This document shows positions 31,545 through 34,203 of a stretch of DNA of 64,000 nt, in pieces. A model generated the notes under the pieces. That model was not told where the DNA came from, did no database searches, and saw only the letters and a list, made by a program, of their open reading frames with translations. The translations under genes and the position numbers were made by a program. This DNA comes from Natrinema sp. CBA1119 (GTDB lineage: Archaea > Halobacteriota > Halobacteria > Halobacteriales > Natrialbaceae): positions 2,294,001 to 2,358,000 of the forward strand of contig NZ_PDBS01000001.1 of assembly GCF_002572525.1 (NCBI RefSeq), read 5' to 3'. The stretch's first letter is position 1. Each line of letters starts with the position of its first letter.

Positions 31545-31937
31545 ATGATCGACGATGACGAGATGTTCGAGGCGTTGGCGGACGTTCGCCGGCGTGAGCT
31601 ATTAGTCGAGTTACTGAGCCGAGAGCGGCTCCGCATCTCCAAACTAACTGGCATTTCTCGACAGATCGCCGAAGCAGACGGGGGATTGCTCCGCACGTAT
31701 CTCTCCGGATCCGGCGAGAACTCGGACGCGGACGTGGAGCTGCTCCGGAAGCGCCACGTTCACCTGCCGAAACTGGCTTCGTACGGCTTTATCGAGTGGG
31801 ATCGGGACAATCACATCGTCACGCGAGGGCAGCGATTCGAGGACATGAGACCGTTTCTCGAACTGATAGACGAGCATCGGAACGAGCGTCCGATACCGGA
31901 ACGGAACCGAGTACGTCTCTCCGTCGATGACCGGTGA
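31545..31937 (+). CDS. Winged-helix protein, probable transcription regulator
   Basis: 130 aa. It begins MIDDDEMFEALADVRRRELLVEL, a typical haloarchaeal winged-helix opening, and ends with a wing-like HLPKLASYGFIEWDRDNHIVTRG. An insertion of about 25 residues (SGSGENSDADVELL) breaks the middle of the fold. A GAGGGG sequence at 31532-31537 could serve as a ribosome binding site. A TTTTTAAG box lies at 31498-31505. No target is indicated by neighbours. Confidence 0.72.
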   Translation: MIDDDEMFEALADVRRRELLVELLSRERLRISKLTGISRQIAEADGGLLRTYLSGSGENSDADVELLRKRHVHLPKLASYGFIEWDRDNHIVTRGQRFEDMRPFLELIDEHRNERPIPERNRVRLSVDDR

Positions 31938-32088
31938 CCGCACACTCGGAGTTGCGTTCTCGTTCGCTCGCTTCGCCTGCGTTGGAATTCGATCGCGTAC
32001 TGACAGTCTGCGGTCGAGTGCGGTAGTTCGCCGCCGACTCCCATTCGAGCGACGGCAACCACATCGCCGTCCAAGCCCCATCACAACG

Positions 32089-32096
32089 CTTTTATT
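32089..32096 (+). promoter_or_regulatory. TATA-like box of the thrS leader
   Basis: CTTTTATT sits about 28 nt upstream of an ATG at 32122 and about 165 nt upstream of thrS. The start of transcription is predicted near 32118-32122, giving thrS a long leader. Confidence 0.5.
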
Positions 32097-32121
32097 CCGT
32101 TCGAGAGTAGCCGTAGCCACG

Positions 32122-32163
32122 ATGGTAGGTGTCCGCTTTACAGGGGCGTTTGCCCGTTTCTAA
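32122..32163 (+). CDS. Candidate leaderless 13-codon leader ORF upstream of thrS
   Basis: ATG to TAA encodes MVGVRFTGAFARF. Its ATG is spaced like a leaderless start behind the TATA-like box at 32089. The outer hairpin of the leader begins at codon 1-2 and closes just after the stop codon. Translation would therefore open the structure. This could be a leader peptide controlling thrS, or chance; there is only one Thr codon. Confidence 0.35.
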   Translation: MVGVRFTGAFARF

Positions 32164-32175
32164 TTCCCACCTACC
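32124..32175 (+). promoter_or_regulatory. Nested hairpin in the thrS leader
   Basis: GGTAGGTG (32124-32131) pairs perfectly with CACCTACC (32168-32175). Inside it GGGC (32144-32147) pairs with GCCC (32152-32155) around GTTT. The structure lies at the predicted 5' end of the thrS transcript and overlaps the small leader ORF. Confidence 0.55.
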
Positions 32176-32256
32176 GCGTATTGCGTCGGCCACGGTCGAC
32201 CAGTGTGCGGGATGCGACGCGGACACGCCACCGGGATTTTCACCACATCCACAGTC

Positions 32257-34203
32257 ATGTCAGAATCAGATTCACAGCGGCAGATAGCGGTCGTACTACC
32301 CGACGGATCGGAGCTCGAGGTCGCCGAAGACGCCACGGTCGAGGACTGCGCCTACGAGATCGGCCCCGGACTCGGCAGCGACACGGTCGCCGGCAAACTC
32401 GACGGCGAACTCGTCGCCAAGGAGGAGCCGGTCTACGACGGCGCGGAGCTCGAGATCGTCACGGACCAGTCCGAGGAGTACCTGCGGGTCATGCGCCACT
32501 CCGCCTCGCACTGTCTCGCTCAGGCCGTCGAACGACTGTACGACGAAGACAAGGTCAAACTCGCGATCGGCCCGCCGACGGACGAGGGCTTCTACTACGA
32601 CTTCGACAACCTCGATATCGACGAGGAGGACCTCGCCGACCTCGAGGACGAAATGGCGGAGATCATCGCCGAGGATTACGAGATCGAACGCGAGGAGGTC
32701 TCGATCGAGGAGGCCGAGGAGCGACTGGCCGACGAGCCCTACAAACTCGAACTCCTCGCTGAGTTCGCCGAGGAGGGAGACATGGTCACGTTCTACAGGC
32801 AGGGCGAGTGGGAGGACCTCTGTGCCGGCCCGCACGTCGAGTCGACGGGCGAGATCGGTGCCGTCGAGCTGCTCGAGATCGCGGGCGCCTACTGGCGCGG
32901 CGACGAGGAGAACACGATGCAGACGCGTATCTACGGCACCGCCTTCGAGGACGAGAGCGACCTCGAAGACTTCCTCAATCGCAAGCAAGAAGCCGAGAAG
33001 CGCGATCACCGCCGGATCGGCAACGAGATGGATCTCTTCTCGATCCAGGACGTGACGGGGCCCGGCCTGCCGCTCTATCACCCCGCCGGGAAGACCGTGC
33101 TCAAGGAACTCGAGGGCTTCGTCGAGGATCTCAACGAGGACGCGGGCTACGACTACGTCGAAACGCCCCACGTCTTCAAGACGGACCTCTGGCACCGCTC
33201 GGGCCACTACGAGAACTACCAGGACGACATGTTCATCTTCGACGTCGGCGACGACGAGTTCGGCCTGAAGCCGATGAACTGTCCCGGCCACGCGGCCATC
33301 TTCCAGGATCACTCCTGGAGCTACCGCGACCTGCCGATCCGCTACGCGGAAAACGGGAAGGTGTATCGCAAAGAGCAACGCGGCGAGCTCTCCGGACTCT
33401 CTCGAGTCTGGGCCTTTACCATCGACGACGGCCACCTCTTCGTCCGCCCCGAACAGATCAAGTCGGAGGTCGAGCAGATCATGGACATGATCACGGACGT
33501 ACTGGATACGTTCGACCTCGAGTACGAGATGGCGCTGGCCACGCGCCCCGAGAAGTCGGTCGGGAGCGACGAAATCTGGGACCGCGCCGAGGAGCAACTC
33601 GAGAGCGTCCTCGACTCTCACGGCCACGAGTACGAGGTCGAGGAGGGCGACGGTGCGTTCTACGGCCCGAAGATCGACTTCGCGTTCGAGGACGCGATCG
33701 GTCGCTCGTGGGACGGCCCGACGGTCCAGTTGGACTTCAACATGCCCGAGCGCTTCGACCTGAACTACGTCGGCGAGGACAACGAGGAACACCGCCCCGT
33801 CATGATCCACCGCGCGCTCTACGGCAGCTACGAGCGGTTCTTCATGATGCTCATCGAGCACTACGAGGGTCGGTTCCCGCTCTGGCTCGCGCCCGAACAG
33901 GTCCGCGTGCTGCCCATCTCCGACGACAATCTCGGTTACGCCCACCGCGTCGCCAACGAGTTCGACGACTTCCGCGTCGAGGTCGACGGCCGCGATAGCA
34001 CCCTAGAGCGGAAGATCCGCGCCGCCCACGACGATCGAGTGCCCTATCAGATCATCGTCGGCGACAACGAGGAAGACGACGGTAATATCTCGGTCCGGGA
34101 CCGCTTCGAGGATCAGGAGTACGATGTTGAGATCGAGGCGTTCCGGAGCCATCTCGAGGACGAAATCGAGGAACAACGGACCGAACCGGACTTCCTGCAG
34201 TAA
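32257..34203 (+). CDS. thrS: Threonyl-tRNA synthetase
   Basis: 648 aa class II synthetase of the bacterial-like architecture. An N-terminal TGS domain occupies residues 1-65, then a second additional domain with [15 protein letters not shown] and [11 protein letters not shown]. The catalytic core has [10 protein letters not shown] with the zinc Cys, motif 2 [14 protein letters not shown], and motif 3 [18 protein letters not shown]-terminal anticodon-binding domain ends the protein. The start at [17 protein letters not shown] is chosen over an ATG 54 nt upstream. A structured leader precedes it. Confidence 0.95.

Follow-up and report, generated by a model that had tools for sequence, protein, structure and literature searches.

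A conserved mini-ORF with covarying RNA structure ahead of haloarchaeal thrS: a candidate ribosome-operated leader-peptide switch

In bacteria, the control of synthetase and amino-acid genes by leader peptides is textbook knowledge. The 135-nt leader between a DUF7344 gene (31545-31937) and the thrS start codon at 32257 in Natrinema sp. CBA1119 raises the question whether such control might also operate on an archaeal synthetase gene. All coordinates refer to the window, i.e. the whole 64,000-nt stretch of DNA that was analysed. The original prediction described a TATA-like box, an ATG opening a 13-codon ORF, an 8-bp perfect stem and a nested hairpin, and all of these lie where it had placed them; strand C and hairpin H2 were absent from it. 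Based on the anatomy of the locus, we propose, with a probability of about 0.55, that the leader is a ribosome-operated leader-peptide switch sensing the supply of Thr-tRNA.

Layout of the thrS leader

The elements referred to below are, in order of their position:

32078..32099, +, conserved leader promoter CCATCACAACGCTTTTATTCCG with TATA-like CTTTTATT at 32089-32096; TTTT starts 32 nt ahead of the ATG of the small ORF (sORF)
32122..32163, +, leader ORF MVGVRFTGAFARF, 13 codons plus TAA (ATG 32122-32124, stop 32161-32163)
32124..32136, +, strand A, GGTAGGTGTCCGC, codons 1-5; pairs with B via 32124-32131 and with C via 32129-32136
32124-32131, +, stem half of A facing B, GGTAGGTG, reverse complement of CACCTACC
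32137..32142, +, TTT-ACA (Phe6-Thr7), invariant in all leaders found; ACA is the proposed sensing codon
32144..32155, +, nested hairpin GGGC-GTTT-GCCC
32168..32175, +, strand B, CACCTACC, partner of A, 4 nt past the sORF stop
32174..32210, +, hairpin H2 after B, predicted by RNAalifold; several of its pairs show compensatory changes
32219..32226, +, strand C, GCGGACAC, pairs with A in place of B, which excludes A:B
32257..34203, +, thrS, bacterial-type threonyl-tRNA synthetase (ThrRS), the presumed controlled gene (ATG 32257; Pfam TGS, tRNA_SAD, tRNA-synt_2b, HGTP_anticodon)

The closest named ThrS loci are those of Natrinema, with 94% identity to ThrS of the window. About 90 nt separate the sORF stop from the thrS start in Natrinema. 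Directly ahead of thrS, Natrialbaceae have a G-poor stretch rich in CA repeats (32236-32256 in the window, and homologues; e.g. CACCCACACC), which is probably unstructured and could be a loading site for a termination factor or a ribosome.

Conservation of the leader, its ORF and its promoter

The ThrS loci for the upstream comparison were picked by protein similarity and hence independently of the leader. With a 186-base query, the leader was recovered from every one of the 29 genomes sampled for the genus, and it was found 5' of essentially every Natrialbaceae thrS examined as well as in five further haloarchaeal families. The series ATG GTA GGT GTC YRC TTT ACA, followed by a stop and CACCTACC, recurs throughout Natrialbaceae, with variants in Haloarchaeobius and Haladaptatus. 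The core pattern ATGNNNGGTGNCNNCTTTACA, with one mismatch allowed, matched 123 of 391 genomes of the class, once per genome apart from a few evident chance matches. Forty matches from six families (f1, f3, f4, f6, f7 and f10) were inspected, 38 of which lay just upstream of thrS and 2 of which were chance matches; every leader inspected is at thrS. At other synthetase genes of the same genome, no similar leader was apparent by eye in eight gene starts (two Pfam families), some of which are doubtful.

A similar ThrS is encoded in 46 of 55 pattern-negative genomes. Two of these carry an altered leader, with a 30-codon ORF (L182) or the ORF MYVGDRFTPRSE plus stop (L210), and most of the remaining thrS genes are preceded by a TATA-like box spaced roughly as for a leaderless mRNA. 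Outside Natrialbaceae and its neighbours, most sampled thrS genes look leaderless. At E 1e-60, no match to the bacterial-type ThrRS of the window was obtained in G137 and G319 (f1 g14), G030, G073, G213 and G381 (f3), G047 (f5), and G231 and G299 (f11); these haloarchaea may use another, archaeal-type ThrRS. Leader-bearing ThrS proteins sit on deep and separate branches in a tree of the ThrS N-terminus (built on fragments, with many weak branches). The leader requires at least six changes on this tree, is clustered and is present on the deep Haladaptatus branch, which suits either an ancient leader lost several times or one that moved along with thrS. Within one genus (f4 g43), two genomes (G224 and G132) combine the leader with a ThrS that has diverged (about 56% identical to the window's), whereas a third (G063) has a leaderless thrS (67%); this suggests that thrS was transferred there together with its leader.

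The reading frame of the ORF is conserved specifically. All 75 distinct leaders have a stop within 11 codons past ACA in the ORF frame, compared to 0/75 in the +1 and 9/75 in the +2 frame, and in the 25 leaders that lack the usual TTYTAA ending, the stop (TAA, TGA or TAG) varies in position but is always in frame. The distance from ATG to ACA is 18 nt in 95 of 98 leaders, and the three exceptions keep the frame, with insertions ahead of TTTACA of 51 nt (twice, apparently in one lineage) and 3 nt. The two long forms, L030 (G026) and L182 (G046), with 51 nt inserted in frame, encode 30-codon ORFs (MAVGN...LRFTRAFARF and MARGH...RRFTRAVARF). In another leader (L172, G337), an insert of about 80 bases near the ORF end includes a GC-rich hairpin; the ORF ends there at codon 18 and the usual B follows downstream of the insert.

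At the control position, the leader has an invariant single ACA at codon 7, not a run of Thr codons, and the Phe-Thr pair is invariant including its synonymous sites. In nine neighbouring ORFs, admittedly a small sample, ACA accounts for 2 of 112 Thr codons (1.8%) and TTT for 8 of 77 Phe codons; a gene for tRNA-Thr(UGU) is present in the genome. Past Thr7, single steps were synonymous to non-synonymous at 9:10, compared to 6:13 and 5:14 in the wrong frames, so the sequences do not clearly indicate amino-acid selection on this part of the peptide, as expected of a leader peptide.

Comparison of 46 distinct upstream regions yielded the promoter consensus cCATCacAA.gcTTTTatcCc, whose spacing to the sORF ATG is constant, with TTTT starting 31-33 nt ahead of it in 88 of 98 leaders. 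The eight bases at -32 to -25 have 75% A+T at the sORF, compared to 36% at thrS, and thrS itself is not preceded by a TATA-like tract. The leaderless nature of the sORF, as predicted originally, agrees with this arrangement, which, given a normal TATA spacing, leaves 0-3 nt before the ATG; the expected transcript start is at the ATG or no more than about 3 nt away. A start near 32230, the contrary case named in the original prediction, is disfavoured because the promoter at 32089 is conserved and the bases proximal to thrS, where no promoter was seen, are poor in A+T. In Haloferax, leaderless transcripts (0-5 nt) make up 72% of the protein-coding ones (PMC4983044). Between TATA box and ATG (32100-32121 in the window), Natrialbaceae keep CTCGAGActACGCGTAgcc, which is partly palindromic (CTCGAG, TACGCGTA) and may serve as a binding site for a regulator or as an initiator.

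Alternative pairings around the ORF

Folding of the single sequence was set aside as evidence, since its minimum free energy of -52.3 compared to -46.8 in shuffles is not significant (z -1.5; 14 of 200 shuffles as good); this fold pairs A with C and not with B as in the original prediction. Support for structure comes instead from comparison, as A:B beats shuffles and covaries and the ORF frame is kept.

Codons 1-4 in strand A pair with strand B just past the stop. The mean energy of the A:B duplex is -15.7 kcal/mol compared to -11.3 kcal/mol after dinucleotide shuffling of the sequence downstream (mean z -2.0), and in 46 of 77 leaders at most 5 of 100 shuffles were as good. When B was re-dealt among the leaders 2000 times, the paired fraction reached at most 0.802 compared to the actual 0.832, a lenient test given related sequences. 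These two analyses supersede a first, weak ungapped test allowing G-U pairs (7.3 versus 6.6 of 8 paired). The pairing is nearly invariant in 33 Natrialbaceae leaders (100% of cells paired) and therefore uninformative there. Across families, nucleotide 5 occurs as T-A or C-G and nucleotide 11 as T-A, A-T or G-C, and co-variants include GGTGACT/AGTCACC, GGTGGCT/AGCCACT, GTCGGTGATC/GATCACCGAC in L210 and GGTGACTG/CAGTCACT in L144. Thus, the stem, whose lack of conservation would have spoken against the original prediction, is conserved and covaries across families. The start of B lies between -3 and +11 nt relative to the stop codon's end in 68 of 77 leaders, close enough for a terminating ribosome to reach it.

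Strand C competes for A in part of the families. In the 33 Natrialbaceae leaders, 98% of A:C cells are paired (at most 63% in slid controls), two pairs are changed on both sides, and the covariation score was reached by none of 500 shuffles. Both strands are also changed together in the Haloarchaeobius group (GTGTCTGC/GCAGACAC) and in L161 (GTGGCTAC/GTAGCCAC), and it is in these three that A:B and A:C are mutually exclusive. C was not found in f3, f6 and most of f7 and f10, and the mean z of A:C over the non-Natrialbaceae leaders is -0.35; a three-strand switch therefore cannot account for the mechanism in every family. In Natrialbaceae, 95.5% of cells of the nested GGGC hairpin are paired, but this hairpin, present in the window, is broken in 3 of 33 rows there and absent from some other families, and is thus not universal.

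With regard to a possible output, no terminator-like site was found in 31940-32300 by a search that covered the intrinsic type, from which archaeal termination signals differ. Pairing of B with the Shine-Dalgarno region of thrS was rejected as a general sequester, being mostly no better than in shuffles. In f7, the predicted equivalent of H2 takes in a Shine-Dalgarno-like GGAGG ahead of thrS, which hints at an output at the level of translation in that family.

A proposed ribosome-operated switch and its alternatives

At the level of the sequence, the comparisons establish the conserved ORF frame, the fixed Thr codon, the link to thrS, A:B and, for some of the families, the competing A:C. A probably translated leader ORF within a structure that its translation would disrupt, as originally predicted, is well supported by the conserved, covarying stem and by a conserved promoter at 32089 with none seen near 32230; for translation itself, the argument is the frame-specific conservation of start and stop. 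From here, we infer translation, stalling, sensing, the identity of the 'off' conformer and the mode of output. Transcription would begin at the leader ORF, whose leaderless ATG would load ribosomes. If Thr-tRNA, especially the reader of ACA, were short, the ribosome would wait with ACA in its A site and cover strand A, which could then pair neither with B nor with C, and thrS would be expressed. If charged tRNA were ample, the ribosome would reach the stop just ahead of B, freeing A and masking B, and A could pair with C in the proposed low-expression form. On an ORF without a ribosome, A:B would form and hide the ORF start as well. The output could be transcription termination (e.g. of the FttA type) or initiation of thrS translation. 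A ribosome footprint covers roughly 28 nt; it would extend over about nt 3-31 of the ORF, and thus all of A, with ACA in the A site, and over about nt 24-52, reaching B, at the stop. This geometry fits a switch whose Thr codon determines if A is available for pairing.

The rare Thr codon 5' of a Thr synthetase gene counts in favour of the switch. Several points count against it: there is one Thr codon only, where classical attenuators of bacteria have runs of codons; no intrinsic terminator was found in the range searched; C is missing from several families; the peptide past Thr is without clear amino-acid selection; and in the 30-codon ORFs of L030 and L182, ACA is distant from strand A, such that a ribosome at ACA would leave A uncovered and the geometry must differ. 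Furthermore, TTT is as invariant as ACA, yet one tRNA-Phe reads both Phe codons, an invariance that codon sensing alone leaves unexplained.

The best-placed of the alternatives, which we still consider unlikely, is that the translated sORF acts by re-initiation, translational coupling or an MxGxxFT nascent-peptide effect without threonine sensing. The invariance of Phe-Thr down to synonymous sites and the GGAGG near H2 before thrS in f7 and some f3 leaders would suit it, but one of the two invariant codons specifies the very amino acid that the synthetase encoded downstream handles, and the distance from the sORF stop to thrS in Natrinema is far for coupling.

In E. coli, thrS is autoregulated by ThrRS through a structured leader with a mimic of the tRNA-Thr anticodon arm. 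It is also unlikely, and ranks next, that the haloarchaeal leader is such a ThrRS-bound operator with the ORF as a secondary feature. Gene and structured leader are common to both systems, the ThrRS of the window is of the bacterial type, and UUUACA and GGUAGGUG are kept at the nucleotide level beyond the protein code; however, the haloarchaeal leader conserves a reading frame and stop instead, and the anticodon-like YGU in H2 is lost in the Natrialbaceae leaders L059 and L180 and in other families. An operator of the E. coli type was rejected for lack of a kept anticodon-arm mimic.

Direct, T-box-like binding of uncharged tRNA-Thr appears improbable. The anticodon loop of tRNA-Thr(UGU), CUUGUAA, includes UGUAA, the complement of UUACA, and this match would account for the invariant TTT before ACA, but a tRNA-binding element needs neither start nor stop codon, and no conserved sequence was seen that could pair with the 3' end of the tRNA; a T-box riboswitch was rejected since 31900-32500 gave no Rfam match, T-box family included, up to E 5. 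Least probable is a non-regulatory leader retained for promoter or mRNA-stability reasons, which the many haloarchaea without a leader would allow but against which the covarying A:B and A:C, the conserved frame and the fixed Thr codon speak.

Compared to these alternatives, attenuation-like control by a leader-peptide switch, as raised in the original prediction, is the best explanation of the anatomy, albeit with no intrinsic terminator. Leader-peptide attenuators have been described for bacterial synthetase genes including trpS and leuS in Streptomyces (PMC1262725). The thrS leader resembles them in its short ORF with a cognate codon, the exclusive pairings around this ORF and the location 5' of a synthetase gene, but differs in being archaeal, in its leaderless start, single rare Thr codon and lack of a detected intrinsic terminator, in using the ORF's own first codons as the switching strand, and in that C is not found in all families. 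It also resembles a leader-ORF system with Cys codons, in that codons of the cognate amino acid lie in a leader ORF and a terminator is lacking; that system has Cys runs near the stop and no conserved hairpins, whereas the thrS leader has one Thr codon and conserved stems. In Haloferax volcanii, uORFs of 15-31 codons were predicted in long 5' UTRs of this single species (PMC4983044), likewise small ORFs in haloarchaeal 5' UTRs but ones for which no structure or conservation is described, and the same genome-wide start-site study found structured-leader control not to be typical of haloarchaea. A limited search of the open-access literature yielded no description of archaeal leader-peptide attenuation or of a haloarchaeal thrS leader. 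We place the leader with the attenuators by its apparent mode of action and not as a proven member, and give about even odds that it represents the first case in Archaea of a ribosome-mediated leader-peptide switch that senses an amino acid. In this reading, the initial codons of a leaderless mini-ORF would themselves serve as the switching strand, and the readout would be where the ribosome stands, at the single rare Thr codon or at the stop.

The conservation pattern suggests a switch operated by ribosomes, a mode of control for which the examples described to date are mostly bacterial. As a covarying, frame-conserved synthetase leader in six haloarchaeal families, the thrS leader offers a precise and testable case for archaea coupling decoding speed to gene expression, and such coupling would operate on a leaderless mRNA start.
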